64,000 nucleotides of DNA. It comes from Betaproteobacteria bacterium (GTDB lineage Bacteria > Pseudomonadota > Gammaproteobacteria > Burkholderiales > SG8-39). The notes below the pieces were generated by a model that was not told the origin of the DNA, did not search any database, and saw only the letters and a list, made by a program, of their open reading frames with translations. Made by a program: the position numbers and the translations under genes. Below are positions 45,633-63,647 of the stretch, piece by piece. The stretch covers positions 1 through 64,000 of the forward strand of contig JACRAS010000250.1 in the NCBI GenBank assembly GCA_016234705.1, written 5' to 3'. Within the stretch, counting starts at the first letter, position 1; each line of letters opens with the position of its first letter.

Positions 45633-47258
45633 ATGTACCTCAATCACTTCGGCCTCGACGAACCGCCCTTTCGCATCACCCCGCACACCGACTTTTTCTT
45701 CGCCGGCGCGAACCGCGGCGCGACGCTGGAGGCGCTGCTCTACGCCATCACTCACGATGAGGGCATCGTCAAAGTGTCGGGCGAGGTGGGCAGCGGCAAG
45801 ACCATGCTGTGCCGGGTGCTGATGGAGCGTCTGCCCGAACAAGTGCAAACCATTCTGCTGTCGAATCCAGCGCTTTCGCGCGACGAGATGATCTACGCCA
45901 TCGCCGAAGAACTCGACATCAGGCAACAGGGCGAGCGACTGTCGGTGCTGCTGCTGAAGCTGCAGGAGCACCTGATCACGCTGTACGGCGAGAACCAGCG
46001 CGTGGTGCTATTGATCGACGAAGCCCACGCCATGCCGCAGGAAACGCTGGAACAGGTCCGGCTGCTCTCGAACCTCGAGTCCAGCCACTCGAAGCTGCTG
46101 CAGATCGTGCTGTTCGGCCAGCCCGAACTGGACGAGCATCTTTCCATGCCGCACATGCGCCCGCTGAAGGAGCGCATCACCCACAGCTTTCGCCTGGCGC
46201 CGCTCGCGCGCTCCGACGTCGAAGCCTATCTGGACTTCCGCATGCGCGCGGCCGGTTACCGCGGGCCGAACGTGTTCGCGCCTGACGCGGTGCGCAGGAT
46301 CGTCAAGGCGTCGGAGGGCCTGACCAGGCGCGTCAACATACTCGCCGACAAATCGCTGCTTGCCGCATTCGCCGACAACGAGCACGGCATCAGCGCAAGG
46401 CATGTCAACCGCGCCATCCGCGACTCGGAGTTCTACCACGCCTCCATCGGCAAAGCCAAGATCGGCCTCGCGGCGGGCGGCGTGGCGGCGGGGCTGGCAT
46501 TGGGGCTGGGCCTGCATTACCTGCTGTCGCCGTCGGCGCAACCGGCGACGGCCAGCGCGGCTCCCGCGCAGCCTGCAACAATTGGGCCGGCAGTGCCGGC
46601 AACCGAACCCTCAGGCGCTGCGGTGGCGCTAGCGCAGCAACAGATTGCACAACCCGCCGGCACCCCACCGATGACGCCTGCCCCGTCTGCCCTAGCCACA
46701 CCCGCGCCAATCGCCGCAACAAAACAGGTCGCGGCACCCGCTGCGGCCAAATCGACTGCGGCACCTGTTGCAGCGGCCCAGACGGCGCCCGCCGCGCAAG
46801 CTGCTGCTGCGCCCGCGCCCGCCGCGGCAGTGCCCGCGGCCACAGCGGCCATCGAACTGCCGGCCGCGCCCACCGGCGCCAAACCAGGCTCGATGAATTA
46901 CCTGCCACCGATGCCGGCCGCAGGCAGGCTTACGCGCGAGCGCTTTGCCGCCACCCAGGAATGGCTGAAGAGCGCGCCCGGCGATCGTTACTCGATTCAA
47001 TTGCTCACCGCCGGCACGCGCGACCTGCGGCACGTCGAAGAACTGCTCGCGCGCGCCACGGGAAGGAACCTCGACCTGTCGGACTTCTACGTCTATGGCG
47101 TCAAGATCAACGACCAGCAGCACTATCGCCTTGCCTATGGACTCTACCCCACGTTCGCCGACGCCAATCAGGGAATCAAGGCTCTGCCTCCGGTGTACCG
47201 GCAGTTCGCTCCGTATCAGCGCAGCGTAGAGCGCATGCGCAGCCAGAACCGCCAATAG
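45633..47258 (+). CDS. ExeA/MshM-like ATPase with SPOR domain
   Basis: The 541-residue protein begins YLNHFGLDEPPFRITPHTDF, the standard opening of ExeA/MshM-type AAA ATPases. It has Walker A GEVGSGKT (50-57), Walker B VVLLIDEAHAMP and a membrane segment at about 281-300. A long Ala/Pro-rich periplasmic linker (about 305-420) leads to a C-terminal SPOR-like peptidoglycan-binding region (YSIQLLTAGTRDLRHVEELL). ATP-driven domains joined to a wall-binding domain help place secretins through the peptidoglycan. It starts the pilus gene run. Confidence 0.88.
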   Translation: MYLNHFGLDEPPFRITPHTDFFFAGANRGATLEALLYAITHDEGIVKVSGEVGSGKTMLCRVLMERLPEQVQTILLSNPALSRDEMIYAIAEELDIRQQGERLSVLLLKLQEHLITLYGENQRVVLLIDEAHAMPQETLEQVRLLSNLESSHSKLLQIVLFGQPELDEHLSMPHMRPLKERITHSFRLAPLARSDVEAYLDFRMRAAGYRGPNVFAPDAVRRIVKASEGLTRRVNILADKSLLAAFADNEHGISARHVNRAIRDSEFYHASIGKAKIGLAAGGVAAGLALGLGLHYLLSPSAQPATASAAPAQPATIGPAVPATEPSGAAVALAQQQIAQPAGTPPMTPAPSALATPAPIAATKQVAAPAAAKSTAAPVAAAQTAPAAQAAAAPAPAAAVPAATAAIELPAAPTGAKPGSMNYLPPMPAAGRLTRERFAATQEWLKSAPGDRYSIQLLTAGTRDLRHVEELLARATGRNLDLSDFYVYGVKINDQQHYRLAYGLYPTFADANQGIKALPPVYRQFAPYQRSVERMRSQNRQ

Positions 47259-47291: not shown

Positions 47292-47320
47292 ATTGTTGTA
47301 CCGTTGCGCAAGCATTACAA
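47292..47320 (+). promoter_or_regulatory. sigma-70 promoter candidate for the Ig-repeat lipoprotein gene
   Basis: TTGTTG (47292-47297) and TACAAT (47315-47320) are separated by exactly 17 bases, ending 34 bases before the GTG start. This is the best consensus promoter in the locus and suggests that the following genes have their own start of transcription. Confidence 0.55.
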
Positions 47321-47354
47321 TATCGATTACGCCGATTGCGTAAAGGGAGCTTGC

Positions 47355-50198
47355 GTGCGGAAATTTTTCAGTCAGAATTACCTCGGCCAGGAGATTTCAC
47401 GGCGTTCGGCATCGCTCTTCCTGGCTGCGACACTAGCCCTTATCGCGGGATGCGGCTCCGGCTCGGCGGTTTCCACCGGCTCAGGAACCGGCAGCGGATC
47501 TACCGGAGGCACCACCACCGGAGGGACCACCTCCGTAGCTCAAACGATAACGGGAACTGCCGCGACCGGAACCCCGCTCGCCGGCGCAGCGGTCACCGTC
47601 CAGGATAGCGCCGGCAAGACCGCTAAAGCCACGACCGCCGCCGACGGCACCTTCAGCATTGCCGTCACCGGCATGACGCCGCCGTTCATGCTGGTCGCGA
47701 TCCCCGTTTCAGGATCCAACCTGTATTCGGTTTTGCCCGCGATGGACATGGCAGTCACAAACAGCCAGAACGTCAACGTCACGCCCATAACCACGCTGGT
47801 CATGTACGAACTCAATGCCGGCGCAGACCCGGCGACGATGTATACCGGCCGGACATTTGTCACCCTGACTGCCGGGGCTGTGCAGGCGAAAGAGACGGTT
47901 GTGCGTGGCAAGCTCCCGGCGAACGCCGTGAACCCGGTCTTCAGCATGATGTATGGCAAATTCATTGCGCAGGCAGGCGGAAACGACCCCTACGACACCG
48001 CGCTGGATAAGCTTGGAAAGATAACCACGATCTCCGTTGCGGGTGTGACCCTCACTCCGGCCACGGGCGCTGCCACGACTTACACCAGCAGCGGCGGCAG
48101 CAGTTCGGCTGCCGGCCCTGCGCTCAGCCTGAAACTCACCGATCCGGCGACGGGCGCGGCCGTAACCTCCATCTCTGGCACCAGTCCCGCGACCTTGACG
48201 GCAACGCTCACCAATGGCAGCGGGGCCGGCGTGCCCAACGCCATTGTGAACTTCTCGACCGATCCGCTATTTGGCGCCTTCTCCGGCGGAGCGAATACCG
48301 CACTGACCAACGCCAGCGGTGTCGCCACCGTGACGCTTTCTACACCCAGTACATCGGGGGGCGCAGCCACGGTAACGGCGAGTTCCACTGTTGCTGGCAC
48401 CACGGTGACCGCATCGCTCAGCTATTCGATCGGGACGTCCAACATTACCCTGAGTTCGGTGACGGTGCCCGCCGGAGTGCTCTCGGCTTACGGCACCGCG
48501 AGCGTCAGCGTGAACGTGCTGAACAACGGCGTGCTCTATGCCACGCCGATAACAGTCAAATTTACCTCCTCCTGTGCCGCCAGCGGTAAAGCCACGCTGA
48601 CTCCTTCAGTGACCACCCTGAACGGAACGGCGTCGGCCTCATATCTTGATAACGGCTGCAACAATCCAAACCCGGGAGACACCATAACCGCGACGCTGTT
48701 GAGTGGAGTAACTGCGACCGGCAACCTGAAGGTAAACACACCGAACGCCGGGTCAATTCAGTTTGTCTCCGTGGTCACGAATCCGGCAAATACTCCGCCC
48801 ATGATCACGCTGAAAGGCACAGGTGGAACCGACAGAACTGAGACGGCTCGCGTGACGTTCCGCGTCGTGGACGGCGCCGGAAATCCATTGGGCGGCACTA
48901 AGGTTACCTTTGACCTTAACACTAGAGTGGGTTGCTTAGCCCTATCGTCTGACGTTGTTACTTTACCTGCTGCCCAACCTTGCCCCGGGTTTACCCTGGG
49001 TTCTGCTTCGTCCGACCCCACCACTGGCAATGTCGTCGTCGACGTATATTCCGGCAATGTAAGCACTGCAGTACGCGTGACCGCGAGTACTGGCAGTATC
49101 TCCACGCAGTCCGACAAGCTTCTGGTCTCAACCGGCATTCCCGCCCAAGACTCCTTCTCCCTTGGTGCTTCTGCTCATAACATCGAGGGTTGGAGCAATA
49201 ACGGGGAGAAAACTACGCTGACCATACGTGCAGCTGATCATTTCCACAACCCTGTGCCCGATGGCACGGCGGTATCTTTCACCAGCGAAGGCGGCGTGGT
49301 GTTACCGGGTTGCAACACCGTGGGCGGCGTATGCACTACAGAACTGACCAGCCAGGCACTGCGCCCGACCAACGGTCGCGTCACCGTGCTGGCCCGCGCA
49401 ATCGGCGAGGAAACGTTCACTGATCTCAACGGTAACGGGACGGTGGACAACATAGGCGAGATGATCGATGCCAACGGCGCCTCCACAGACATGGGGGAAG
49501 CTTTTGTCGATTACAACGAGAACGGCATTCGAGACGCCAACGAGCCGTTTTTCGATTTCAACGGCAACGGAATATACGATGGTCCGAATGGCAAGTATGA
49601 GGGTCTGCTTTGCACGGGAGGTGCAGCAATCTGCAATACGCAATTGTTGCCGTCGGGCTTGCCGCAGCGGTCCATGGACGTGCGCGCCGGCCAGGTGATC
49701 GTGTTCTCGACTTCAAACGCCAATATCACAATCAACGGGGGCAATCCGATTGCGTTGCCCTCATGCACGACCGGGAAGAACGGGGGAGCGGGAGGAGCCG
49801 TGCAGTTCACCGTGACGGTAGTTGATCAGAACGGCAACGCGATGCCCGCCGGGACGCTAGTAACCTTCTCCTCAACTAACGGGACTGTTACGTCTCCCGC
49901 TTATACCGTACCGGATACGAGCGGCTGTCGAATCGGCAATGACCCGAGCGGCACTGCATATGCCTGCCCCGACAATACGAAATTGACGCCCCCCCAAGGA
50001 CCTGGCTCCGCATCGTTCGGGAATATCTCCGTTAGCATGAGGAGCGACGCCGTTTTTGCCCTTGTTGTTGACGCGGCAACTGCTCTTCCCGTCGACGGAA
50101 CATGCACGGACGCCACGGGGAAGAGCGGAAATCTTACGGTTACCGTGACTACACCCAAAGGCATTGCCAGCACCAATTCGGTGACGGTCACCGACTAG
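47355..50198 (+). CDS. large Ig-like (Big-type) repeat lipoprotein
   Basis: The protein has 947 residues from GTG 47355 (GGGAG upstream). A signal with lipobox LIAGC and a Ser/Gly/Thr linker lead to a carboxypeptidase-like regulatory domain (GTPLAGAAVTVQDSAGKT and onward). About five bacterial Ig-like units follow, with patterns such as GVATVTLSTPS and DGAGNPLGGTKVTFDL. Near residues 690-750 is a Ca-binding-like run of DxNxNG motifs (DLNGNGTVDN, DYNENGIRD, DFNGNGIYD). Between an MshM-like ATPase and mshL, it is probably a surface protein or pilus-associated adhesin comparable in place to MshQ. An upstream TTG (47304) is rejected because it lies inside the promoter. Confidence 0.85.
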   Translation: MRKFFSQNYLGQEISRRSASLFLAATLALIAGCGSGSAVSTGSGTGSGSTGGTTTGGTTSVAQTITGTAATGTPLAGAAVTVQDSAGKTAKATTAADGTFSIAVTGMTPPFMLVAIPVSGSNLYSVLPAMDMAVTNSQNVNVTPITTLVMYELNAGADPATMYTGRTFVTLTAGAVQAKETVVRGKLPANAVNPVFSMMYGKFIAQAGGNDPYDTALDKLGKITTISVAGVTLTPATGAATTYTSSGGSSSAAGPALSLKLTDPATGAAVTSISGTSPATLTATLTNGSGAGVPNAIVNFSTDPLFGAFSGGANTALTNASGVATVTLSTPSTSGGAATVTASSTVAGTTVTASLSYSIGTSNITLSSVTVPAGVLSAYGTASVSVNVLNNGVLYATPITVKFTSSCAASGKATLTPSVTTLNGTASASYLDNGCNNPNPGDTITATLLSGVTATGNLKVNTPNAGSIQFVSVVTNPANTPPMITLKGTGGTDRTETARVTFRVVDGAGNPLGGTKVTFDLNTRVGCLALSSDVVTLPAAQPCPGFTLGSASSDPTTGNVVVDVYSGNVSTAVRVTASTGSISTQSDKLLVSTGIPAQDSFSLGASAHNIEGWSNNGEKTTLTIRAADHFHNPVPDGTAVSFTSEGGVVLPGCNTVGGVCTTELTSQALRPTNGRVTVLARAIGEETFTDLNGNGTVDNIGEMIDANGASTDMGEAFVDYNENGIRDANEPFFDFNGNGIYDGPNGKYEGLLCTGGAAICNTQLLPSGLPQRSMDVRAGQVIVFSTSNANITINGGNPIALPSCTTGKNGGAGGAVQFTVTVVDQNGNAMPAGTLVTFSSTNGTVTSPAYTVPDTSGCRIGNDPSGTAYACPDNTKLTPPQGPGSASFGNISVSMRSDAVFALVVDAATALPVDGTCTDATGKSGNLTVTVTTPKGIASTNSVTVTD

Positions 50199-50581: not shown

Positions 50582-52384
50582 ATGACGAACGTGATGAAGC
50601 TTAAAGTCGGGTTGACGTTCGCAGCTTGCCTGCTTATCGGCGGCTGCGGCACGCAACCGATGAAGCCATCTCCCGGCCATGTGCAGGCCGCCGCGCCGGC
50701 GCCTGCCGGCGACATCCCCGAACCGGTGCGGGTCTCCCCCATATTGCCCAAGCCCAAGCCCGCCGCGAGGCCCGAAACCTATAGCGTGGTCGTCAACAGC
50801 GTCAAGGCGCAGGAACTGCTGTTTGCGCTCGCGCGCGACGCCAAGCTCAATATCGACGTTCATTCCGGCATCATCGGCAGCGTCACGCTGAACGCCATCG
50901 ACCAGACGCTGCAGCAACTGCTTGCGCGCATCGCCAAGCAGATAGACATGCGCTACGAACTCGACGGCCCCAACCTGACGGTGATGCCCGATACGCCCTA
51001 TCTGCGCATCTACAAGATCGATTACGTCAACATGCAGCGCGACACCGAGAGCAAAGTCGGCACCTCGACCCAGGTGGCGACGCCGGGCGCACCTGGGGGT
51101 GGGGGCGGCGCGGCCGGCGGCAATCAGTCGACCACCTCGATAACCAGCAAGGCAGCCAACCATTTCTGGGACACCCTGGTCAAGAACGTGAAGGACATCC
51201 TGCAGGAGACGGACAAGATCCTCCCCGCGCCAGGACCGGCGGGCGCCCAGGCCGCGGCGCCGACCGCGGCGCCGGCCGCGCCTGCGGGTGGCGCGGCTGC
51301 GCCCGTTGCGTCCGCAGCGCCGGCGCAACAGGGGGCGAGCTTCCGCGAAGCCGCTTCCGTCATCTCCAACCCCGAGTCGGGCGTGCTCAGCATCCGCGCC
51401 ACCTCGCGCCAGCACGAGAAAATCCAGGAATTTCTCGACCAGGTGCTCTCCAACGCAAAGCGCCAGGTCCTGATCGAAGCCACCATCGCCGAAGTGCAAC
51501 TGAACAATCAATATCAGCAGGGCATAGATTGGTCCTTGATCCGCCTTGCCAATCCCAACAATCCCTCGGCAGCGAGCTTCAACATCAGTCAGGCCATCGG
51601 TGGCACCACGACGGCGTCGCCGACCGGCAGTATTTTCACGCTCGGCGTCACCTCGCCCCTGTTCAACAACAACCTGGCGGCGACGGTGCGCCTGCTCGAC
51701 TCCTTCGGCACCGTGCGCGTGCTCTCCAGCCCGCGGCTGACGGTGCTGAACAACCAGACCGCCATTCTGAAGGTGGTGGACAACCAGGTCTACTTCACCA
51801 TTCAGGCTACGACCACGGCGGGTTCGGCGGGCGTCGCGCCGGTCACCACATTCACCACCACGCCCAACATCGTGGCGGTCGGGTTCATCATGAACGTTAC
51901 GCCGCAGATCAGCGACCTCGAAAGCGTGTTGCTCAACGTGCGCCCCAGCATATCGCGCATCGTCGGCAACGTTGCCGATCCAAACCCGACACTGGCGGCG
52001 CCGTGCGGCGCGGCCGGCGCCGGCCTGCCCGGTTGCGGTTCGATCACCAGCAACATTCCGGTAATCCAGACGCGCGAGATGGAATCGCTGATCAAGGTAA
52101 ACAGCGGACAGATCGCGGTAATGGGCGGGTTGATCCAGGACCGGGTCAACGATCTTGAGGACAGCGTGCCCGGCGCGAACCGTCTGCCCGGAGTGGGAAG
52201 GCTGTTCGAAAACCGCAATCTGACCAACACCAAAACCGAACTAGTGGTGTTCATGCGCCCGATTATCGTTCGGGATGCCAGCATCGACGGTGACTTCCGC
52301 AACTATCACACGATGTTGCCGGACAACAATTATTTGGCCGTACCCAACCCCGGCAAGCCGGCGCCGCAGGGATCGCCGCGGTGA
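50582..52384 (+). CDS. mshL: pilus secretin MshL
   Basis: The protein has 600 residues. A lipoprotein signal (LLIGGC) leads to a short proline-rich stretch, then an STN/N0-type domain (LLFALARDAKLNIDVHSGI). After Gly/Ala-rich linkers (about 165-185 and 220-250) comes the secretin domain (RVLSSPRLTVLNNQTAILKV, GGLIQDRVNDLEDSVPG, LVVFMRPIIV). It forms the outer-membrane gate through which the pilus emerges. The following gene overlaps its stop. The Ala-rich linkers are longer than in Vibrio MshL. Confidence 0.92.
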   Translation: MTNVMKLKVGLTFAACLLIGGCGTQPMKPSPGHVQAAAPAPAGDIPEPVRVSPILPKPKPAARPETYSVVVNSVKAQELLFALARDAKLNIDVHSGIIGSVTLNAIDQTLQQLLARIAKQIDMRYELDGPNLTVMPDTPYLRIYKIDYVNMQRDTESKVGTSTQVATPGAPGGGGGAAGGNQSTTSITSKAANHFWDTLVKNVKDILQETDKILPAPGPAGAQAAAPTAAPAAPAGGAAAPVASAAPAQQGASFREAASVISNPESGVLSIRATSRQHEKIQEFLDQVLSNAKRQVLIEATIAEVQLNNQYQQGIDWSLIRLANPNNPSAASFNISQAIGGTTTASPTGSIFTLGVTSPLFNNNLAATVRLLDSFGTVRVLSSPRLTVLNNQTAILKVVDNQVYFTIQATTTAGSAGVAPVTTFTTTPNIVAVGFIMNVTPQISDLESVLLNVRPSISRIVGNVADPNPTLAAPCGAAGAGLPGCGSITSNIPVIQTREMESLIKVNSGQIAVMGGLIQDRVNDLEDSVPGANRLPGVGRLFENRNLTNTKTELVVFMRPIIVRDASIDGDFRNYHTMLPDNNYLAVPNPGKPAPQGSPR

Positions 52385-53751
52385 GCCTGCTGCTCGAAGC
52401 CCTGAAAAAAGCGGAACTTGCCAAGCAGGCGGCGAAGGAACCGCCGCCTGACGCGGACAAACCGCCGTTCACGCGCGACAAATTGCCCGACATCAGGCAA
52501 CCGATGGAGATTACCAGCGAGGGCCTGAGCCTCGCCGAGACCGAACCCGAACCGGCACCCATGCGCACCGAGAAACCGGTCCTCGAACTCGCGCCTGAGG
52601 AACCGCCGCGGCGCGCAGCGCCCGCCCCGGAGCCACCGCCCGCACCGCAGCCGGCGCCCGCCATGCGGCCCGCGCCTGTTGAAACCGACTATTCACCTCC
52701 CAGCGAAACGCAGGAACGCAAGCAAGCGCAGCAGTTGTTCGAGGCCAAGGAACTGGACGTCAATCCGCGCAAGCCGTTCTATTACACCGTAGGCGCGCTG
52801 GGCCTGTTCGCCCTGGGCACGGTCGGCTACTTCTGGTATGAGATGCAACCGAAAAACAATTACAAAATACCCCCGCCATCGGCACAACCCGCCCCGCAGC
52901 CGGTGGCCACGGCACCGGCTGCTCCTGCAGTCTCGCCGGACGCGCCCGCGGCGGCCACTGTGACACCGCCGGTCGGCAGCCAGCCCGCCGTGCCGGCAAC
53001 AGGCGCTTCCCCAACCGGCGCAGTGTCGGCCGCGGCACCCGCTCCGGTTCCGGCCGCAGCTCCGGCCGCTCCGCGCGGCCCGGTATTTGCGCGCCAGAGC
53101 GCGCCGGCAAGCGGCGCAGCAGCCGCGCCGCAGCCCGGCCCGGCCCCGCGCGGGCGCGACATCACGATCACGCCTGCCCGCGTGCAGGCCGACCCTGTGC
53201 TGGAAGGCGCATATCAGGCATACAACGCGGGCGACCTGGCCAGGGCGCGCGACGACTACCAGCAGGTGCTGCGCTCCAATCCGGACAACCGCGATGCGCT
53301 GCTGGGACTGGCGGCGGTGGAAACGCAGGCCAGACGCTATGACGCAGCCGATCGCTATTACACGCGCCTGCTCGAACTCGATCCGCGCGATGCGCACGCG
53401 CAGGCCGGGCTGATCGGCCTGCGCGGGCAAGCCGACCCGCTGGCCGCGGAATCGCGCCTGAAAAACATGATCGCCGCCCAGCCCGAAGCGAGCTTCCTGC
53501 ATTTCACCCTGGGCAATCAATTCGCGGCACAGGAGCGCTGGGCCGAGGCGCAGCAAGCCTATTTCAACGCCTACGCCAGCGATACCGAAAACGCCGACTT
53601 TGCCCACAATCTCGCCATCAGCCTGGACCGGATGCACCAGGCCAAGCCCGCGCTCGAATATTACCGGCGCGCGCTGGCGCTGGCGCAAAGCCGCCCGGCG
53701 TCCTTCGACAAGACCCGGGTAAGCAAAAGGGTATTGCAGCTCGAGCGCTGA
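52381..53751 (+). CDS. MshN-like membrane protein with TPR repeats
   Basis: The protein has 456 residues from GTG 52381, overlapping the mshL stop (GTGA). MSLLLEALKKAELAKQ is the typical opening of such assembly proteins. A proline-rich cytoplasmic stretch leads to one membrane segment (YYTVGALGLFALGTVGYFWY, about 137-157), a long Ala/Pro linker and about four TPR units (AYNAGDLARARDDYQQVLRSNP, ALLGLAAVETQARRYDAADRYY and onward). By place it matches MshN of Vibrio and Shewanella, an accessory assembly factor. Confidence 0.8.
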   Translation: MSLLLEALKKAELAKQAAKEPPPDADKPPFTRDKLPDIRQPMEITSEGLSLAETEPEPAPMRTEKPVLELAPEEPPRRAAPAPEPPPAPQPAPAMRPAPVETDYSPPSETQERKQAQQLFEAKELDVNPRKPFYYTVGALGLFALGTVGYFWYEMQPKNNYKIPPPSAQPAPQPVATAPAAPAVSPDAPAAATVTPPVGSQPAVPATGASPTGAVSAAAPAPVPAAAPAAPRGPVFARQSAPASGAAAAPQPGPAPRGRDITITPARVQADPVLEGAYQAYNAGDLARARDDYQQVLRSNPDNRDALLGLAAVETQARRYDAADRYYTRLLELDPRDAHAQAGLIGLRGQADPLAAESRLKNMIAAQPEASFLHFTLGNQFAAQERWAEAQQAYFNAYASDTENADFAHNLAISLDRMHQAKPALEYYRRALALAQSRPASFDKTRVSKRVLQLER

Positions 53752-53753
53752 CC

Positions 53754-55484
53754 ATGAATTCCCCGGCATCTATCACCACCGCGACCACCGCCACCGCGGC
53801 CAAGCGCCACATCGGCCAGATCCTGATCTCGCAGGGAATTCTGACCGAGGACCAGTTGCGCATCGCGCTGCTGGAGCAGATGAAATCCAAGCTTCCGGTG
53901 GGGAAGCTCCTGGTCAACCTGGGCTTCGTGTCTGAAGCCACGCTGCGCGACGCTCTATCCGAGAAACTGGGGCTGCAAAGCGTCGACCTGTCCCAGATCA
54001 TCATCGACTCGCAGGCGATGAAACTGGTGCCGCGCGATTTCGCGCTGCGCCATCACATATTCCCGATCGCGCTGGATCGCGACCGCGGCACGCTCATCGT
54101 GGCGCTGTCGGACACCAACAACCTCGTCGCCCTGGACCAGTTGCGCGCGCGCCTGCGCGGCGAACTGGAGCTGGAGCCGCGTTTGGCGGGTGACACCGAG
54201 ATCTCACGCGCCATCGAGCAGTATTACGGCCACGAGCTCTCCATCGATGGCATCCTGCACGAGATCGAAACCGGCGAGGTCGACTACCAGAGTCTGGCCG
54301 GCGCCGGCGAGCAGTACAGCCAGCCGGTGGTGCGGCTGATTGCGGCCTTGCTTGCCGATGCGGTCGGAAAGAATGCGTCCGACATCCACTTCGAGCCGGA
54401 GCAGAATTTCCTGCGCATCCGCTACCGCATCGACGGCGTGCTGCGGCAGATCCGCTCGCTGCACAAGACCTACTGGCCGGCGATGGCGGTGCGCATCAAG
54501 GTGCTGGCGAAAATGAACATCGCCGAGACGCGCGCCCCTCAGGATGGACGCATCTCCCTGTCGCTCACCGGCAGACAGGTGGATTTCCGCGTCGCCTCGC
54601 AGGCCACCAGCCACGGCGAAAACGTGGTGCTGCGGATTCTCGACCGGCAAAAGGGCATCGTGCCCCTGGACGGACTGGGGCTCGAATCGAGCCAGCTCGA
54701 CTTGCTCAAGCGGCTGATCTCGCGCCCGGAAGGCATCATCCTGGTGACCGGCCCGACCGGCAGCGGCAAGACCACCACCCTGTACTCGGTGCTGAACCAC
54801 ATCAATTCGGACACGGTCAACATCATGACCATGGAGGACCCGGTCGAGTATCCGATGACCATGATCCGCCAGACCTCGGTGAACGAGGCCGCGAAAATGG
54901 ACTTTGCCAGCGGCATCCGTTCGCTCATGCGCCAGGACCCGGACGTGATCCTCGTGGGCGAAATCCGCGACGAGGAAACCGCCGAAATGGCATTCCGCGC
55001 CGCCATGACGGGCCACCAGGTCTATTCCACGCTGCACACCAACTCCGCGGTTGGCGCGTTTCCACGCCTGCTCGATACCGGCGTCACGCCCGAAGTGATG
55101 GCCGGCAACATGATCGGCATCGTCGCCCAGCGCCTGATCCGGCGCCTGTGCAAACACTGCCGCCAGCCCTATACCGCGACGTCGGCCGAGTGCCGCCTGC
55201 TCGGAGTCAAGGCAGACCGGCCGCCCACCGTGTACCGCGCAGTGGGTTGCGACCACTGCGATTACCAGGGCTATCGCGGGCGGCTGGCAATCATGGAGAT
55301 ACTGAAGCTGGACGTCGATCTGGATGAACTGATTTCGCGGCGCGCCACCGCGCGCGAGATTCAACGCGCCGCAGTAGCCAAGGGTTTTCGCACCCTCGCC
55401 GACGACGGCGCGCGGCGCGTCCTCGAGGGCACGACCTCGCTCGACGAACTGATGCGAGTGGTGGATCTCACCGACCGCATGTAG
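53754..55484 (+). CDS. mshE: pilus extension ATPase MshE
   Basis: The protein has 576 residues. The N-terminal MshEN domain starts with KRHIGQILISQGILTEDQL and a second half near 85-150. The motor domain has Walker A GPTGSGKTTT (about 331-340), Asp box DPDVILVGEIRDEETAE and His box TLHTNSA, with a zinc site made of CKHC and CDHC (about 466 and 500). MshEN domains of this kind bind cyclic di-GMP in MshE, so the pilus may respond to this messenger. It starts two bases after the TPR gene. Confidence 0.93.
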   Translation: MNSPASITTATTATAAKRHIGQILISQGILTEDQLRIALLEQMKSKLPVGKLLVNLGFVSEATLRDALSEKLGLQSVDLSQIIIDSQAMKLVPRDFALRHHIFPIALDRDRGTLIVALSDTNNLVALDQLRARLRGELELEPRLAGDTEISRAIEQYYGHELSIDGILHEIETGEVDYQSLAGAGEQYSQPVVRLIAALLADAVGKNASDIHFEPEQNFLRIRYRIDGVLRQIRSLHKTYWPAMAVRIKVLAKMNIAETRAPQDGRISLSLTGRQVDFRVASQATSHGENVVLRILDRQKGIVPLDGLGLESSQLDLLKRLISRPEGIILVTGPTGSGKTTTLYSVLNHINSDTVNIMTMEDPVEYPMTMIRQTSVNEAAKMDFASGIRSLMRQDPDVILVGEIRDEETAEMAFRAAMTGHQVYSTLHTNSAVGAFPRLLDTGVTPEVMAGNMIGIVAQRLIRRLCKHCRQPYTATSAECRLLGVKADRPPTVYRAVGCDHCDYQGYRGRLAIMEILKLDVDLDELISRRATAREIQRAAVAKGFRTLADDGARRVLEGTTSLDELMRVVDLTDRM

Positions 55485-55511: not shown

Positions 55512-56714
55512 ATGGCGCTGTACTCCTACAAGGCAATCGACGGCCGCGGCAAGTCGCTCATGGGGCAGATCGAAGCCATCAACCTGATCGATCTGGAGCT
55601 GCGGCTGCAGCGCATGGGGCTCGACCTGATCGTCGGCGGACCGGCGAGCAGGCGCTCGAGCATGTTCAAGGGCGCGATCGGGCGGCCCGAGCTGATCAAC
55701 TTCTGCTTCCACCTGGACCAACTGACCTCTGCCGGCGTGGCCATCCTGGAGGCGCTGACCGACCTGCGCGACAGTGTCGAAAACCCGCGCTTTCGCGAAG
55801 TCATCAGCGGGCTGATCGAAAGCATCCAGGGCGGGCAGAACCTTTCGTCCGCGATGGCCGACTATACAGACGTGTTCCCCAAGGTATTCGCCAACCTGAT
55901 TCGTGCGGGTGAAGAAACCGGGCGTATGTCGCAGGTTCTGAAAAGCCTCGGGGAAAACCTGAAGTGGGAGGACGAACTCATCGCGCAGACGAAAAAGCTG
56001 ATGATGTATCCGGCCTTCGTCGGCAGCATCGTGCTTGCGGTGACCATGTTCTTGATGATCTACCTCGTCCCGCAGATGATCGGCTTCATCAAGAGCAGCG
56101 GTCAGGCGATCCCGCTGCAGACCCGCATCCTGATCCAGGTGTCGAGCTTTTTCATCAATTACTGGTGGGCGGTCCTGATCGCCCCGGTGATCGCCGTCGC
56201 CGGCATCAAGCTCGCCCTGACGCGCAGCCCGGCGTTTCGCTACAAGTTCGACGAATTTAAGCTGCGCGTGCCGCTCCTCGGGCCGATCCAGCGCAAAATT
56301 ATCCTGTCGCGTTTCGCCAGCATCTTCGCCATGATGTATTCCTCCGGCATCACCATCCTCGACTGCATCAAGAGTTCCGAGGATATCGCCGGCAACCTGG
56401 TGATCAGCGAAGGGCTCGCGCGCGCCGGACAACAGATCGCCGAAGGCAAGAACGTATCCACCGCGTTCCAGGATGTGGGCCTGTTCCCGCCGCTGGTGAT
56501 ACGCATGCTGCGCGTTGGGGAATCCTCCGGCAAACTCGACAACGCGCTGCTCAACGTGTCCTATTTCTACAATCGCGACGTGAAGGATGCCATCGGCAAG
56601 GTGGAGGTGATGATCGAGCCGGCCATGACGGTCATCCTCGGCGCGCTCCTCGGTTGGGTAATGCTGTCGGTGCTTGGCCCCATCTACGACTCCGTCAGCA
56701 AGATCAAGTTCTAA
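55512..56714 (+). CDS. mshG: pilus inner-membrane platform protein MshG
   Basis: The protein has 400 residues and belongs to the GspF/PilC family, with two cytoplasmic T2SF domains (NFCFHLDQLTSAGVAILEAL and ILSRFASIFAMMYSSGITIL). Three hydrophobic segments lie near 172-195, 215-235 and 372-392. It transmits force from MshE to the growing pilus. The gene lies 27 bases after mshE. Confidence 0.93.
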   Translation: MALYSYKAIDGRGKSLMGQIEAINLIDLELRLQRMGLDLIVGGPASRRSSMFKGAIGRPELINFCFHLDQLTSAGVAILEALTDLRDSVENPRFREVISGLIESIQGGQNLSSAMADYTDVFPKVFANLIRAGEETGRMSQVLKSLGENLKWEDELIAQTKKLMMYPAFVGSIVLAVTMFLMIYLVPQMIGFIKSSGQAIPLQTRILIQVSSFFINYWWAVLIAPVIAVAGIKLALTRSPAFRYKFDEFKLRVPLLGPIQRKIILSRFASIFAMMYSSGITILDCIKSSEDIAGNLVISEGLARAGQQIAEGKNVSTAFQDVGLFPPLVIRMLRVGESSGKLDNALLNVSYFYNRDVKDAIGKVEVMIEPAMTVILGALLGWVMLSVLGPIYDSVSKIKF

Positions 56715-56718
56715 CCCG

Positions 56719-58311
56719 ATGCTGCGAAAAAAGCGCCTGCTTTATCTCACCGCCAGCCGGCTGACGGCGCATAGCCTGTCGCGCGGCAAGCTGGTCGTCG
56801 ATGCGACCTTCGAGCGCAACGACCCCGGGCTGGCCGCGTTCGCCACTTATCTCGCCGGCTCGCGCAACCTGTACTACCTGGTGGTCGATGTGGTCGAGGA
56901 GGATTACCACCAGGACACGATCCCCGACCTCGGCCGCAAGGACCGGCGGCTGGTGCTGGCGCGCAAGCTCGCGCAGCGCTACCGCGATACCAGCCTCACA
57001 CTGAGCCTGTCGCTCGGTTTCGACAAGGGCGAGCGAAAGAACGAGAAAGTCCTGTATGCGTCGTTCTCCAACACGCAGCAGTTCCAGCCCTGGCTTGCTG
57101 CGCTGGAGCAGAAGGAAGTCCGCCTGGTGGGTGTGTATTCCACCGCGTTGCTCGCGCCACCCGTGATCAAAGGCGCCGGGCTCAAGTCGCCGCGCTGCCT
57201 GCTGGTGAGCGTGCAGCAGACCGGACTGAGGCAAAGCTACGTCGAGGACGGCAACATCCGCTTCTCCCGCATCGGCCGCGTGAACCTGGAGGACGCCGCC
57301 GGCGTGGCCGCGGCCTGTGCCGGCGAATCGGCGCGCCTGCAGCAATACCTGGTTACCCTGCGCTTGTTGCCGACGGCGAACACGCCGATCGACGTGATGG
57401 TGCTGGCGGCGGGTCGGTATCACGCCGCGCTCACCGAGGTCTGCCGCAGCACCGAGGTGCTGAACTTCCATGTCGTCAACGCAGACACCCAGTGCCGGAC
57501 GGTCGGCCTGCCGCATTTTCCGGCCGGCGCGCCTTGCGATGCCTTGTTCCTTTACGCCGCGGCCAGCGCCACCCCCAAGCAGCAGTTTGCGCAAGATCAG
57601 CACCGGCATCATTATCAGCTGTGGCAGATCGGCAAGGTCCTGTATGCTGCCGGCGCGGCAGTACTTGGATCGGGCCTGCTGTTCACCGGCGTGGAACTGT
57701 TCGACGTCTACAATCTGCGCCAGCGCATCCGCTCCGATCAAACCCAGTTCGACGCGATCAGCGCCGAGTACGCGCGCGTCACCGCCACGTTCCCGCCGAC
57801 GCCGACTTCGACCGAGAACCTCAAGACCACCATCAAGCAATTCCGCGCGCTGCAGTCGCAGACAGCCTCCCCGGCCTACCTGTTCGCGGAAATCAGCAAG
57901 ACCCTGGCCGGCTTTTCCCAGGTTGAACTGGAGCGCATCGAATGGCGCGTCGGCAAGCCGCAGCAGGAGAGCGCCGCCAAGGGCGCGGCGCCCAAGCCCG
58001 CTACGCCCGCGCCTGCGCCGGTCGCGGCGGGCGCGCCTGCGGCTGCACCCGCGGCCGACCTAGGCTATCAATTAGCCACCATTTCGGCGCGAGTGGTGGG
58101 CGCGCGCCGCTCCGACGTGCGCTCGATCACCGACATCGCGAGTCAGTTCATGGCCGCACTGAGGAAGGTCCCCCACCTGGAGGTCATGAACGTACGCTTG
58201 CCATTCGACGTCACCGCGGATGATACGCTCGCGGGCAATATCGGATCGGAACGCGCGATAGCCGAAGACGCGAGCTTCAGCTTCACCATCGGCAGAAAGC
58301 TCGGCGGATGA
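56719..58311 (+). CDS. pilus assembly protein, PilM/PilN-like fusion
   Basis: The protein has 530 residues from ATG 56719. The first roughly 290 residues have no obvious membrane segment and, by place, correspond to the cytoplasmic MshI/PilM-like part. A membrane segment lies at about 305-325 (GAAVLGSGLLFTGVELF), followed by a coiled coil (YNLRQRIRSDQTQFDAISAE) and a periplasmic domain interrupted by an Ala/Pro linker (about 420-450). The layout is that of GspL or a PilM-PilN fusion. Family membership is inferred from order and topology; I do not recognise the N-terminal sequence. The next gene overlaps it by 4 bp. Confidence 0.6.
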   Translation: MLRKKRLLYLTASRLTAHSLSRGKLVVDATFERNDPGLAAFATYLAGSRNLYYLVVDVVEEDYHQDTIPDLGRKDRRLVLARKLAQRYRDTSLTLSLSLGFDKGERKNEKVLYASFSNTQQFQPWLAALEQKEVRLVGVYSTALLAPPVIKGAGLKSPRCLLVSVQQTGLRQSYVEDGNIRFSRIGRVNLEDAAGVAAACAGESARLQQYLVTLRLLPTANTPIDVMVLAAGRYHAALTEVCRSTEVLNFHVVNADTQCRTVGLPHFPAGAPCDALFLYAAASATPKQQFAQDQHRHHYQLWQIGKVLYAAGAAVLGSGLLFTGVELFDVYNLRQRIRSDQTQFDAISAEYARVTATFPPTPTSTENLKTTIKQFRALQSQTASPAYLFAEISKTLAGFSQVELERIEWRVGKPQQESAAKGAAPKPATPAPAPVAAGAPAAAPAADLGYQLATISARVVGARRSDVRSITDIASQFMAALRKVPHLEVMNVRLPFDVTADDTLAGNIGSERAIAEDASFSFTIGRKLGG

Positions 58312-58913
58312 AGCTCGGCGCAAGCGACATGAAACGGCTGCGCCTGCCCATGGCGGCCTGCGTCGCCCTGGCCGTGGCCGGAGTGGGTTGTTATTTCGCC
58401 GCCGACAATTATCTGCAGGAAACGAAAAAGCTGGGCGCGGCAGCGTCCGGGCAGCGTGCCGAAATTCAGACGAGGCTTGCCAGCGCCAACGAGGAGGAGC
58501 GCGAAATCAAGGCCAACCTGCAGCAGTACAAGGCGCTGGCGGCGCGCGGCGTCATCGGCGAGGAAAGGCGCCTGGACTGGATCGACGCCCTCACGGCGAT
58601 CAAGAACGAGCGGCGGCTGTTCAATATCGGCTACAGCATCGAGCCGCAGAAGGAACTCGACTATCCCGGCTTTGCCCCCACAGCCGGCGTCTATTTCGTG
58701 TCCAGCCGCGTAAAGATCGATATTCAGTTGTTGCACGAGGAAGACCTGCTCAATTTCATCGACGATCTGAGCAAGCGCAGCAAATTGTACCTGTCGCCGA
58801 GAAGCTGCGAGGTCAAACGCACGGACCGCGGCAGCGGAACAACACTCGCGCCACGGCTGCAAGCAAATTGCGTCTTCGACCTGATCACCATCCGCCACAA
58901 CAAGCCGGCCTAG
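58308..58913 (+). CDS. PilO/MshJ-like inner-membrane protein
   Basis: This 201-residue protein has one N-terminal membrane segment (about 14-31), a coiled coil (GQRAEIQTRLASANEEEREIKANLQQY in parts) and a periplasmic alpha/beta domain. This is the PilO/MshJ/GspM layout. It overlaps the previous gene (ATGA, 58308-58311), so the two products are probably partners. There is no strong motif; the assignment is by topology and neighbourhood. Confidence 0.6.
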   Translation: MKLGASDMKRLRLPMAACVALAVAGVGCYFAADNYLQETKKLGAAASGQRAEIQTRLASANEEEREIKANLQQYKALAARGVIGEERRLDWIDALTAIKNERRLFNIGYSIEPQKELDYPGFAPTAGVYFVSSRVKIDIQLLHEEDLLNFIDDLSKRSKLYLSPRSCEVKRTDRGSGTTLAPRLQANCVFDLITIRHNKPA

Positions 58914-58965: not shown

Positions 58966-59511
58966 ATGGGGATTACCAGTAACAGTCACTCCGAGAATTG
59001 TCAATCCAAGGCCCAAGGCCGAGGAATCTGCTTTTTGCATCTTCCGAAAGCCAGAGACTTCGCTTCACTCGCGCTGATGCTGACCTGCCTTGCCGCGCCT
59101 GCGGCCGTTGCGGCGGAAGAACTCGGACGTCTTTTTTTGACGCCGCAGCAGCGCCAGGACCTGGACCGCAGGCGCGCAACCAACCGCGCCGAGGAAGAAG
59201 CGCCGCAGATCAGAGAAGGTCCACTCACGCTCGAGGGCCACCTGCAACGCTCTAGCGGCAGGACCGCCACCTGGATCAACGGCGTGCCCCAATACGACAG
59301 CCACGCCAGCCGCGACCCGGCCCGGATCATGGTGGTCCCGAACCAGGGCGAGCCCGGCGTCAGCCTCAAGATCGGCCAGATCTATGAGCGCATGAGCGGC
59401 GAGGTGCGCGATAAGCTGCAGGGGGGCGCGATTACCGTCGGGAAGACCGCGCGCAAAGCCCAGCCGGTGACCCGTGGAACCGCCGCCGGATCGTCCAAAA
59501 CGGCGCGTTAG
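58966..59511 (+). CDS. MshK/PilP-like exported protein
   Basis: The protein has 181 residues. A hydrophobic signal-like region lies at about 33-50 (LALMLTCLAAPAAVAAEE), with an unusually long polar N-terminus before it, so the real start may be further in. The body contains RLFLTPQQRQDLDRRRATNR and GHLQRSSGRTATWINGV, a pattern seen in small exported pilus or type II secretion partners (MshK-like) that link inner-membrane proteins and the secretin. It is basic toward the C-terminus. Confidence 0.6.
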   Translation: MGITSNSHSENCQSKAQGRGICFLHLPKARDFASLALMLTCLAAPAAVAAEELGRLFLTPQQRQDLDRRRATNRAEEEAPQIREGPLTLEGHLQRSSGRTATWINGVPQYDSHASRDPARIMVVPNQGEPGVSLKIGQIYERMSGEVRDKLQGGAITVGKTARKAQPVTRGTAAGSSKTAR

Positions 59512-59533: not shown

Positions 59534-61093
59534 ATGGATATGCCCGGCCGCCAGCGCGGCGCGGCCCTGCTGATCCTGCTCGCCTTGGTTAGCGTCGCGG
59601 TCATCTACACGGTCGTGGCCGGCATGAACCGCAGCGCGGGTGACATGGCAAGGGCGCGGGAGCAGAAAACCTATGCCGCGCTGGCGCAGGCGAAGGCCGC
59701 CCTGATCGCCTACGCAGTCACCTACAAGGATACGCACGCCAATACCGTTCCCGGCTATCTGCCCTGCCCCGACCGCGGAGCGTCGACTAGCGAAGGCGTG
59801 GCTGAGGGGACCTGCGGCTCTTCGCTGGTGAGCGTCATCGGCAGGCTGCCGTGGCAAACGCTGGGAACGGAAGCCCTGAAAGACAGTTCGGGTGAATGCC
59901 TCTGGTACGCGGTCTCGGGAACCTACAAGAACAGTCCCAACGCAGTCACGACCAGCACCGCAACCTCGAACATGATGAACTGGGACACCAATGGCCAGTT
60001 TGGTGTCATGGATACGGACGGGACCTCCTTCCTCGCCGGATCAACGGCAGACACCAGGGCCGTCGCGGTGATCTTCGCTCCCGGCGCCGCGCTCTCGGGA
60101 CAAGTCCGCACGCATGCTGCGGGCACCGCCAACTGTGGCGGAAACTACACCGCGTCCGCCTACCTCGAGACCGCGAACGCCATCAACAACAGCGTGGTCT
60201 CCGCAACTGCGAGCGCGATAACGAGTTTCATCGCCGGTACCACCAGTGACACTTTCAACGACAAGCTCGTGTACATCACCCGCGCGGATATCTGGACTGC
60301 GGTCAAGAAACGCTCGGATTTCGCCAACAGCTTGCGCGCGCTCACCCGGCGGGCCGCGGAGTGTACCGCCATGTACGGTACCCAGAACAGCTCAGGCCTG
60401 ACCGATATGCGGCTGCCGTGGGCCTCGGCCACCGTTCTCACCAACTACGCCATCAACTCGCGCTACAACGATGCCACCAGCGACCTGTCCGGCCGCCTGT
60501 CCTATCGCGTCGAGACGTCCCGAACCAACAACGGCACCAACGCAATACCTTTCAACAGCGGCGGTTACTATATGTTTACCAATGGTTCCTACTGCAGCTA
60601 TCAGACCGACGAACAGGCCTGGTATGACAACTGGAAGGATCATTTGTTCTACGCTATTGCCTGGAATTACCGGCCGGCGGCGGCAAAACCGACGGTGGCG
60701 TGCGGAACCTGCCTCAGCATCAACGGCGCCGGAAGTTACGCGGCGGTGGTGATATTCGCCGGCGAAAAACTGTCCGGCAAGAGTCGGAATACCTTGGCCG
60801 AAAAGGGCGTACTCAGCAACTATCTGGAGGGGCGTAATTTTACCAATGACCCCAACGCCGGCGGCAACAGCAACTATGAGGCGGCCGCTGCCAGCACCAC
60901 CTTCAATGACATCGTCTACGCGATAGACGCTAACCTGAGAGTGCATTGTCACCCCTCGACCAACGGCGCGATGGTAATTCAGAACTCCACGCCCCAGACG
61001 GGCATCGCTGCCTCGGCCCCGGCGCCGCTCGCTCCCCCAGGCGCCCCGCAACTCCCCCCTGGCCCGGTGGCGCCTTACGCCGCCTGCCCTTGA
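59534..61093 (+). CDS. large pilin-like protein with duplicated module
   Basis: The protein has 519 residues. The N-terminus RQRGAALLILLALVSVAVIYTV resembles PilX-type minor pilins, which lack Glu+5. The long body contains YLPCPD (75-80) and two copies of a module. Copy 1 has RLPWQTLG (104-111), CLWYAVS (122-128), VIFAPGAALSG (179-189), AYLE and FNDKLVYIT (241-249). Copy 2 has RLPWAS (293-298), LFYAIAWNY (371-379), VVIFAGEKLSG (405-415), NYLEGRN and FNDIVYAI (457-464). A proline tail ends it. The next gene product shares the same signature once. No known family is recognised; a pilus-tip or adhesive role is a guess. Confidence 0.7.
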   Translation: MDMPGRQRGAALLILLALVSVAVIYTVVAGMNRSAGDMARAREQKTYAALAQAKAALIAYAVTYKDTHANTVPGYLPCPDRGASTSEGVAEGTCGSSLVSVIGRLPWQTLGTEALKDSSGECLWYAVSGTYKNSPNAVTTSTATSNMMNWDTNGQFGVMDTDGTSFLAGSTADTRAVAVIFAPGAALSGQVRTHAAGTANCGGNYTASAYLETANAINNSVVSATASAITSFIAGTTSDTFNDKLVYITRADIWTAVKKRSDFANSLRALTRRAAECTAMYGTQNSSGLTDMRLPWASATVLTNYAINSRYNDATSDLSGRLSYRVETSRTNNGTNAIPFNSGGYYMFTNGSYCSYQTDEQAWYDNWKDHLFYAIAWNYRPAAAKPTVACGTCLSINGAGSYAAVVIFAGEKLSGKSRNTLAEKGVLSNYLEGRNFTNDPNAGGNSNYEAAAASTTFNDIVYAIDANLRVHCHPSTNGAMVIQNSTPQTGIAASAPAPLAPPGAPQLPPGPVAPYAACP

Positions 61094-61923
61094 CGCGATT
61101 GTTCCCGCACGCCATCTTTCTGCCCCGGCTGCAGCGGGGCTTCACGCTGGCCGAGCTCGCCATCGTGCTGGTCATCATTTCTTTCCTGCTGGGTGGCACG
61201 ATGGCGATGATTTCGGCGCAAACGGAGCAACGTTACTGGAACGATACCCAGAGCCGGCTCGAAGCCGCGCGCGACGCGATTCTCGGCTACGCGATCGCAA
61301 ATGGACGTCTTCCGTGCCCGGCCAACAGCACCTCCTCGGGCGCCGAAGTACACGTAAGCGGCGTGTGTGGCGCAGCGGGCAATACCTACGACTATTACGG
61401 CGGCGTCGTCGCCGGCGTCACCTACGGCCTGATGCCGGCCGTCACCCTCGGCTACCAGCCGGTCGACTCGCAGGGATTCGCCCTGGATGCATGGGGCAAT
61501 CGCATTCGCTATACGGTTTCCCGGGTCACTACGCCGGTAACGACCTCAGCCAACTTCACCAACGCGGCCAACATGAAAGCGAGCGGCGTCACGGTGCTGC
61601 CCAACGATCTGGTCGTGTGCGCGTCTGCGACCGGAATCTTGCCTGGCAACGTGCCGCCGACCTGCAACACGGCGCCATCGGTCACCGGTCAACAGACCGT
61701 GGTTGCGATCCTGTACTCACCGGGCAAGAACGGGCGAGAGCCCGTCACGCTAGGAGCGGACGAGGCTGCCAATGAAGACCGCGCCGCCACCAACGACGCG
61801 GTTTTCGTCAGCCATACGCCCGCGCCCACCGGCGCCACCGGCGGCGAGTTCGACGATCAGGTCCTGTGGATATCGGTCGGCACGCTGTACTCGAAGCTCA
61901 TTGCAGCCGGCGTACTACCCTAG
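61090..61923 (+). CDS. type IV prepilin-like protein
   Basis: The protein has 277 residues from TTG 61090, overlapping the previous stop (TTGA). A basic 17-residue leader ends at G17, followed by FTLAELAIVLVIISFLLGG, a perfect prepilin-peptidase site with Glu at +5. The body shows YAIANGRLPCPA (67-78), GLMPAVTLG (113-121), YTVSRV (141-146), VVAILYSPGKNG (204-215) and FDDQVLWIS (254-262), the same ordered signature as in the preceding 519-residue protein. Being Cys-containing and large, it is likely a minor pilin rather than the main subunit. Confidence 0.82.
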   Translation: MTRLFPHAIFLPRLQRGFTLAELAIVLVIISFLLGGTMAMISAQTEQRYWNDTQSRLEAARDAILGYAIANGRLPCPANSTSSGAEVHVSGVCGAAGNTYDYYGGVVAGVTYGLMPAVTLGYQPVDSQGFALDAWGNRIRYTVSRVTTPVTTSANFTNAANMKASGVTVLPNDLVVCASATGILPGNVPPTCNTAPSVTGQQTVVAILYSPGKNGREPVTLGADEAANEDRAATNDAVFVSHTPAPTGATGGEFDDQVLWISVGTLYSKLIAAGVLP

Positions 61924-63647
61924 GCGGCAGCCGGCGCCGCCGCAGGCTTGTGCGCGCCAGAAAGAACGAACGACACCTTGCCATCGGCGTTGTGTGCCAG
62001 CGCCAGGGAGAAGCCCGAGACCTCGGCATGACGCGCCACCTGGTACAGGCCGATGCCCAGGCCGCTGTCCGAGGGCACCGGCCCGCGCAGCAGCTCGGTT
62101 GCGGTTTCCACCGCAATAGCGCGTCCGCCATCGCACACCTCCAGCCGGGCAGTGTCGCCGCAGGCGAAGCTGACGCTGATGGCGAAATCCCCCTGCTGCT
62201 TGCGTTTGCCGATCGCATTTTGTATCAGGTTGTCGGCGGCGCTTTCGAATAAATCCCGCGGCAGCAACGCCTGATCGCCGATCTCGCCCTCGCGGAACTC
62301 GATATCCTGGCCGGCATAGTTGCGCTGCAGGCCGCGCCACCAGCTTCGCGCCTGCACCGCGCTGCTGCTGGCGTCTGCCGGCCGGCTCAGCTTGTCCATG
62401 GTCTGCTGCAGGCGCTGGGTGATCACCGGCAACTGGCGCCGCATCAGCACATGCAGCTCGTCGGCGCCGCCGGCTTCCTGCTCGGCCGCGGCGCACAACA
62501 CATTGAGCGACTGCAGCAGGTTCTTGATGTCGTGGGTCATACGGGCGCCGGTTTCGTACACGGCCTGCACATAGGATTGCTGCTGCAGCTTTTGCTCGCG
62601 CAGTTTGGCCAAATAGAACTCGCCCAGCATCTGGCCCAGCAGATGAAAATGCCAGGTCAGCGCCGGGCTCAGGCTGTATTGGGTGTAGACGCGCAACTGG
62701 AGCTCCCCGTCGGCGTATTCCACTGTGTTTTTGCTCGGCTGGCCGAATTCGCCGCTATAGACGGAACTGCGCCAGGTGCCGCCGCTGACCCAGGGGAGTT
62801 TGCCCAGGCCGGCGCAGGCCTGCTGCAGAAACTTTTCCGGCTGCCTTTCCCATTGTGACAGCTCGGCCAGAAAGTACAGCCATTTCTCGAACGGCAGGCC
62901 GACCGACAGCAGGTATCTCGAGAACAGCATGGAGAGGCCGCCGAAACCCGCGCGCGGATTCCAGGCGAGTCCGAACAGCAGCAGCACCCCGGCGATCAGG
63001 AGCAGGCTGTAGGTGAGGGCGACAGGATAATTCACCCGGCCCAGGGTCATGAAAGCGAAACTGCCCAGCACCAGCAGCACGATGATCATGAACAGGAACG
63101 CGCTGTAGAAAAAATCCACCACCTGCGGTGTTTCGCCGGTATTGGTTTCCGTCGGCAGCGCCAGCATGACCAGGAACAGCAGCGGCAGCCCATACTGGGC
63201 GAACTGCTTCAGTTCCTGCGTCTGCGAGAACGCGGGCAGCAGTCGCGGAAACACCCAGATGAGCAACAGCGACACCAGGTACAGCAGCACGGTCAAATGG
63301 AAGTACCGTTGCCAGCGCGCCTGAAACAGGAACACCTTGCCCCCGACGATGCCGGCGAGGATGCACAGCCACAACAACATCAGCCACCAGTTCCAGAAAA
63401 ACAGGGCAAGCACGCACGCCAGGGCAATGACGGAAAGCTGCAGCGATGTCAGGCTCTGCTCGCCGCGCATGAACGGCTGCCACAGGATGAACAGGCCGAA
63501 GTGGGCGAGCATCAGCGCGCGCGCCCAGGTGTCTTCCACGCCGCGCATCGCGGTGAGGTGAAGCAACGCGAGCATGGCGACGAACAGCAGCTGCCAATAG
63601 CGGCTGATGAGCATCGGGGTAGCGCGGGTCAGGGTATCGGTAGCCAT
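61920..63647 (-). CDS. membrane histidine kinase (PrsK-like output domain)
   Basis: The protein has 575 residues. The N-terminal 230 residues hold about eight membrane segments (for example RYWQLLFVAMLALLHLTA, FLFMIIVLLVLGSFAFMTL, YSLLLIAGVLLLFGLAW). A cytoplasmic linker leads to an H-box TGARMTHDIKNLLQSLN and a GHKL ATPase with NLIQNAIGKRKQQG and SGLGIGLYQVA. The HDIKN form is shared with PrsK-type kinases, and the PrsR-like regulator at 44203 is its most likely partner. It is convergent with the prepilin gene, overlapping it by 4 bp. Confidence 0.85.
   Translation of the reverse strand: MATDTLTRATPMLISRYWQLLFVAMLALLHLTAMRGVEDTWARALMLAHFGLFILWQPFMRGEQSLTSLQLSVIALACVLALFFWNWWLMLLWLCILAGIVGGKVFLFQARWQRYFHLTVLLYLVSLLLIWVFPRLLPAFSQTQELKQFAQYGLPLLFLVMLALPTETNTGETPQVVDFFYSAFLFMIIVLLVLGSFAFMTLGRVNYPVALTYSLLLIAGVLLLFGLAWNPRAGFGGLSMLFSRYLLSVGLPFEKWLYFLAELSQWERQPEKFLQQACAGLGKLPWVSGGTWRSSVYSGEFGQPSKNTVEYADGELQLRVYTQYSLSPALTWHFHLLGQMLGEFYLAKLREQKLQQQSYVQAVYETGARMTHDIKNLLQSLNVLCAAAEQEAGGADELHVLMRRQLPVITQRLQQTMDKLSRPADASSSAVQARSWWRGLQRNYAGQDIEFREGEIGDQALLPRDLFESAADNLIQNAIGKRKQQGDFAISVSFACGDTARLEVCDGGRAIAVETATELLRGPVPSDSGLGIGLYQVARHAEVSGFSLALAHNADGKVSFVLSGAHKPAAAPAAA

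Follow-up and report, generated by a model that had tools for sequence, protein, structure and literature searches.

Minor pilins decide the start of a type IV filament and what the filament binds. A superfamily-wide study set them aside as they align poorly, and gave mshE, mshG, mshL and mshM as the mandatory genes of the MSH system (PMC6668835), while the MSHA pilus has been called too poorly characterised for tabulation (PMC10191384). Members of the GspK family, the tip subunit of type II secretion, are larger than other pilins, are encoded with other minor pilins, and have a hydrophobic residue in place of Glu5 (PMC5207764); being both large and hydrophobic at residue 5 has been put forward as the hallmark of the subunit that starts a new filament (PMC5207764). 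In modular pilins, such as PilB and PilC of Streptococcus sanguinis and CofB/TcpB, a second module stands C-terminal to the pilin module on one stalk (PMC8179133). These modules are of the vWA, lectin and beta-repeat or sandwich kinds, and the survey of such proteins asked for IPR012902 together with a domain that is not pilus-specific (PMC8179133). The major pseudopilins GspG/EpsG combine a long helix, an RxP turn and a DxWGxxxxY strand.

The window analysed here is the whole stretch of 64,000 nucleotides from contig JACRAS010000250.1 of a Betaproteobacteria bacterium, and near its end lie two adjacent pilin genes, here called P1 and P2. P1 is a real, widely conserved two-headed variant built from an ordinary fold. 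No description of a two-headed or tandem pilin was found in a literature search outside subscription papers.

The MSHA-type cluster and its neighbours

P1 and P2 close a gene cluster in the order M-L-N-E-G-I-J-K-P1-P2, whose other members are as follows.

45633 to 47258, + strand: MshM-like AAA protein (profile matches, gene order)
50582 to 52384, + strand: MshL-type secretin (TIGR02519, 5e-67, 225.9 bits, just under the cut-off of 250.2)
52381 to 53751, + strand: MshN-like TPR protein (profile match, gene order)
53754 to 55484, + strand: MshE-type assembly ATPase with MshEN and a c-di-GMP motif (profile matches)
55512 to 56714, + strand: MshG/GspF-type platform protein (profile matches)
56674 to 58311, + strand: MshI-position protein (named by position only; start of the open reading frame as listed)
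58308 to 58913, + strand: MshJ-position protein (named by position only)
58966 to 59511, + strand: MshK-position protein (named by position only)

The cluster shares with the MSHA system the MshM, L, N, E, G and I-J-K positions, while it differs in ending with P1-P2 and in its MshL, which scores just below the curated cut-off. Proteins with MshEN/T2SSE, T2SSF, secretin and AAA matches lie together in one cluster, as judged by profiles other than those of the superfamily study itself (PMC6668835) and with MshL at 225.9 of 250.2 bits. The order MshM-L-N-E-G-I-J-K-P1-P2 recurs in dozens of genomes, from Burkholderiales and from much of Gammaproteobacteria, and it often continues with a kinase gene on the opposite strand and a further pilin gene.

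Several neighbours deserve mention. A gene at 61920-63647 on the - strand, convergent with P2 so that the two stops overlap by 4 bases, encodes a membrane protein of 575 aa whose HATPase domain is C-terminal; since many genomes have a homologue at this position and in this orientation, it may regulate the pilus. Directly upstream of the cluster, a Sigma-54 activator with a receiver domain (44116-45624, + strand) is a possible partner of this kinase. A candidate surface or adhesive partner is encoded between the genes for the MshM-like protein and MshL: a secreted Big_1 Ig-like protein of 964 aa (47304-50198, + strand) that resembles a lipoprotein. A third pilin (GFTLVEIAIVLVIIGLLLGG, 230 aa) is encoded 4.3 kb downstream of P2, at G000:C218:66193-66885 (L083:8194-8886); its gene recurs near the P1/P2 pair elsewhere, and it is a candidate major pilin. 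Other pilin gene groups are also present in the genome. Elsewhere in the class, several genomes have two MshL-type secretin genes (e.g., G139:C1:82104 and 95091; G214:C17), and these sometimes flank the P1 locus on both sides.

Leaders and predicted folds

The two pilin genes and their parts, where the assignment of heads and helices is a prediction from the evidence in brackets, are arranged as follows.

59534 to 61093, + strand: P1, two-headed pilin, 519 aa (ATG start; possible in-frame GTG at 59474)
59549 to 59620, + strand: class III-like leader end RQRG and hydrophobic tract of P1, AALLILLALVSVAVIYTVVAG (sequence)
59663 to 59728, + strand: alpha1-C helix of P1 head 1, QKTYAALAQAKAALIAYAVTYK (P1 model, profile comparison)
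59756 to 60280, + strand: P1 head 1, residues 75-249 (profile comparisons)
60281 to 60385, + strand: P1 inter-head helix, residues 250-284, alpha1-C equivalent (AF2 helix and alignment with P2 alpha1-C)
60410 to 60928, + strand: P1 head 2, residues 293-465 (profile comparisons, global alignment)
61001 to 61090, + strand: P1 C-terminal tail, Pro/Ala-rich and unconserved (sequence, alignment of relatives)
61090 to 61923, + strand: P2, single-headed prepilin with N_methyl and Glu5, 277 aa (TTG start overlapping the P1 stop)
61306 to 61875, + strand: P2 head, residues 73-262 (profile comparisons, predicted model)

The leader of P2 is of the standard prepilin type, RLQRG/FTLAE (the slash marks the cut), with Glu5 kept, and it matches N_methyl (PF07963) at 28.7 bits, above the cut-off of 21.2. 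That of P1, RQRG/AALLILLAL, is of the same kind but has a hydrophobic residue 5; cleavage is expected before A10, without Glu at +5. Pfam N_methyl (PF07963) gives no match to the P1 leader, and the Gly end followed by about 20 hydrophobic residues, as in type IV pilins, is kept in 83 distinct relatives. Glu5 is missing at all 83 distinct P1 sites, where residue 5 is hydrophobic or Gly, versus its presence in 107 of 109 P2-type proteins. As type IV pilins, both proteins would be cut by prepilin peptidase and built into a filament.

The predicted model of P2 (pLDDT 63, pTM 0.65) has one helix, alpha1, at residues 3-54, followed by a sheet, and this arrangement of alpha1 on an antiparallel sheet is that of type IV pilins, a moderate test at an overall pLDDT of 63. 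When it is compared with the PDB, all the chains listed at Z >= 2 are type IV pilins or pseudopilins, one row among them being an environmental pilus-like structure. The best match is EpsG of V. cholerae (Z 6.1, 3.6 A, 94 residues), followed by PilA4, XcpG and an ETEC pilin. A Z near 6 is modest, yet unrelated families do not compete; Foldseek alone gave nothing significant for this model. Moreover, the profiles of P2 and GspG align in register at 80.8% (E 1.3e-5), and the P2 head alone still finds the GspG profile at E 0.0017 over DAWGNRIRY, corresponding to DPWGxxY. P2 thus has, on its predicted model, the pilin fold, and the novel head fold proposed in the original prediction is rejected for P2 by the structure matches and the GspG profile. 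P2 shares with GspG/EpsG the long helix, the RxP turn and the DxWGxxxxY strand, and differs from them in being twice as long, with a long loop of low confidence; no P2 scores above the cut-off of the T2SSG profile, which weakly matches 2 of 13 P2 members (best E 0.017).

The model of P1 (pLDDT 53, pTM 0.58) shows alpha1, the sheet of head 1, another long helix (mature-chain residues 241-275, AF2) and a head 2 predicted with low confidence, for the most part at pLDDT below 60. In comparison with the PDB (Foldseek and VIA), FimU alone appears at Z >= 2 (Z 3.0), over residues 27-244, which is head 1; the structure search returned nothing useful for head 2. Because this part of the model has low confidence, the assignment of head 2 as a pilin-type head rests on profiles, which suggest it as described below. 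Neither P1 head gives any signal with the GspG profile, and a direct GspG origin of these heads was rejected.

One head in P2, two in P1

How similar are the three heads? Copy 1 of P1 carries YLPCPD at 75-80, GRLPWQTLG at 103-111, GECLWYAVS at 120-128, AVAVIFAPG at 176-184 and FNDKLVYIT at 241-249. Copy 2 of P1 carries RLPWA at 293-297, DNWKDHLFYAIA at 365-376, AAVVIFAGE at 403-411 and FNDIVYAID at 457-465, and the P2 copy has RLPCPA at 73-78, GLMPAVTLG at 113-121, DAWGNRIRYTVS at 133-144, VVAILYSPG at 204-212 and FDDQVLWIS at 254-262. An ordered signature present twice in P1 and once in P2, together with a (Y/R)LPCP element early in both proteins, had been predicted from the sequence, and the copies, their order and the early element (YLPCPD and RLPCPA) are all borne out. 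The first motif of that signature has to be redrawn, because in profile and global alignments RLPWA of copy 2 lines up with LPCP of copy 1 and P2, and GRLSY (320-325) with GRLPW/GLMP of these two, so that two distinct alignment positions had been merged. LxGQxR and YLExxN are common to heads 1 and 2, while P2 has neither, and DxWGxxxxY is common to P2 and head 2; all three go beyond the original prediction. The global alignment of head 2 with P2 sets DNWKDHLFYAI on DAWGNRIRYTV, VVIFAGE on VAILYSPG and FNDIVYAI on FDDQVLWI.

By BLASTP, P1 already matches almost the full length of P2 (E 5e-6). For comparison as profiles, relatives from 60 related genomes and from a species-wide collection were gathered and aligned. 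An HMM of P1 finds P2 proteins, down to 6e-23, and an HMM of P2 finds head 1 of P1, down to 2e-19; in other genomes, the head 1 HMM finds head 2 and vice versa. Profile-profile comparisons, with the preceding helix included, gave 99.5% and E 8e-23 for head 1 and P2, 98.1% and E 7e-14 over 85 columns for head 1 and head 2, and 92.1% and E 6e-7 for head 2 and P2. As controls, 60 column permutations per comparison reached at best a score of 20 and a probability of about 3%, and reversed profiles gave nothing. By these comparisons, the homology of head 1, head 2 and P2 is far beyond chance, head 1 qualifies as a pilin head through its match to P2, and the double head of P1 is well supported, in agreement with the original prediction of a duplicated pilin-type head in one subunit. 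The heads of P1 match no model of Pfam, NCBIfam or PHROG, so the module was rightly called unrecognised, and no sequence match covering them was found in the PDB either; plasmid and phage-family searches also gave no match.

Head 2 alone matches P2 moderately. The alignment of head 2 with P2 takes in the helix at residues 250-284, and thus this helix is the equivalent of alpha1-C, a feature likewise absent from the original prediction. Since the inter-head helix, ahead of head 2, repeats alpha1-C, the duplicated unit is a pilin complete but for its membrane half.

P1 in related genomes

Relatives of P1 occur in 39 of the 60 related genomes, in 73 of 369 genomes sampled across the class, and also in genomes of the phylum outside the class. 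MshL accompanies them in 65 of 72 genomes with P1 versus 96 of 296 others (Fisher p 5e-20, with genomes counted as independent despite their kinship). Most relatives have two heads, 13 have one (about 240-300 residues after trimming), and some are giant two-headed forms (L159-L164, 984-1135 aa) with 500-700 extra residues inside head 2, made up in part of 3-5 copies of a module of about 78 residues. This module has the pattern ...DxxxDFxxxGVxxGDxVxNxTDGSxGxV...LxGGxxNxFxxGDxYxI and no Pfam match. In P1 relatives, head 2 and its loops are far more variable in length than head 1. Single-headed relatives exist, and these occupy the same gene order, so the system can in some genomes do without the second head. 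A quick tree separates P1 and P2 into two fully supported groups and has head number changing at least 5 times, whichever of one or two heads is older, a direction that it does not fix. At L171:5185-6439 (G060:C34), P1 lies in two overlapping frames, one for head 1 (290 aa) and one for head 2 (155 aa), reflecting either a frameshift or heads that are naturally encoded apart. A CxxC in head 2, considered as a conserved feature, was dropped since it occurs in only 9 of 47.

Roles and origin of the second head

P1 resembles the GspK family in its size (519 aa, versus 277 aa of P2), in being encoded with another minor pilin and in its hydrophobic residue 5. GspK has an alpha-helical domain inserted in the sheet, while in P1 the first head is followed by another of the pilin type. 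With modular pilins, P1 shares one stalk and a second module C-terminal to the first, but here the added module is a further pilin-type head. P1 would therefore have escaped the survey of modular pilins, which required an extra domain not specific to pili (PMC8179133). The idea that P1-type proteins are modular pilins carrying some known domain was also rejected, as no Pfam match rises above cut-off even in the forms of about 1000 residues. With no GspK (T2SSK) family match in Pfam or NCBIfam at E up to 1, and with a pilin head as its extra module, P1 belongs by these tests to neither group, although it would work much as both do.

How, then, could a filament use a subunit with two heads? P1 and P2 are probably paralogues that serve as minor pilins in a type IV filament of the MSHA type. 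P1 would be a double-headed, GspK-like first or tip subunit with P2 underneath, and head 2 would act as cap or display. The alpha1-C-plus-sheet head of P1 would have been duplicated in tandem, to give one membrane stalk with two pilin heads. P1 would then be the first subunit, at the tip of the filament, and P2 would be added beneath it, while head 2, beyond head 1, would cap the tip or present a binding surface, which some relatives may enlarge by repeat arrays inserted into head 2. By analogy with GspK-family subunits, the tip role is most likely for P1 since it is large and has a hydrophobic residue 5, and the insertions in relatives favour display for head 2.

It is also quite possible, if somewhat less than probable, that head 2 is an adhesive or display module only, so that P1 would be a modular pilin of the ordinary kind, with an additional module that happens to be derived from the head of a pilin. 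The 3-5 copies of the module of about 78 residues inside head 2 of several relatives and the much greater variation in length of head 2 and its loops are what such a function would lead one to expect, but no recognised binding domain was found in any P1 tested. Could the two heads instead stand for two tip subunits? P1 would then be a tip dimer fused in advance, and P1 and P2 together would take the place of the multi-subunit GspI-J-K/PilV-W-X priming complex. Past mshK, the end of the cluster has only P1 and P2, with one more pilin gene a few kb off, and head 2 comes with its own alpha1-C-like helix; however, the other pilin gene groups of the genome could supply minor pilins, and single-headed relatives stand in the same gene order, so we consider this unlikely.

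That the second half of P1 is no pilin head at all, its motifs being short convergent beta-strand patterns, would fit the lack of a confident model and of a PDB match by sequence for this half, but it is very improbable in view of the 98.1% match of heads 1 and 2 (E 7e-14, 85 columns; controls at most about 3%), the six elements in the same order plus the helix, and LxGQxR and YLExxN in both heads. Least credible of all is an origin of head 2 by fusion with a copy of P2, adjacent and homologous as that gene is, since head 2 has a score of 93.7 with head 1 and of 50.4 with P2, LxGQxR and YLExxN link it with head 1 only, and head 1 of P1 and P2 fall in separate clades; the shared motifs and the higher score favour duplication of head 1.

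Concluding remarks

To return to P1 as a double-headed tip subunit above P2, a bolder and rather doubtful extension would make this two-headed pilin, conserved across a large part of Gammaproteobacteria (sensu GTDB) and present in at least one other class, a fused tip that is assembled in advance. In MSHA-type pili it would stand in for part of the canonical multi-subunit priming complex, and head 2 would be a socket that receives large repeat modules in different lineages. The P1/P2 pair offers a conserved handle on the tip of the MSHA-type pilus, and the natural single-, double- and giant-headed versions of P1 share one gene position. P1 and P2 make two questions testable: whether a filament may be primed by one fused subunit, and in what way a pilus carries extra modules.
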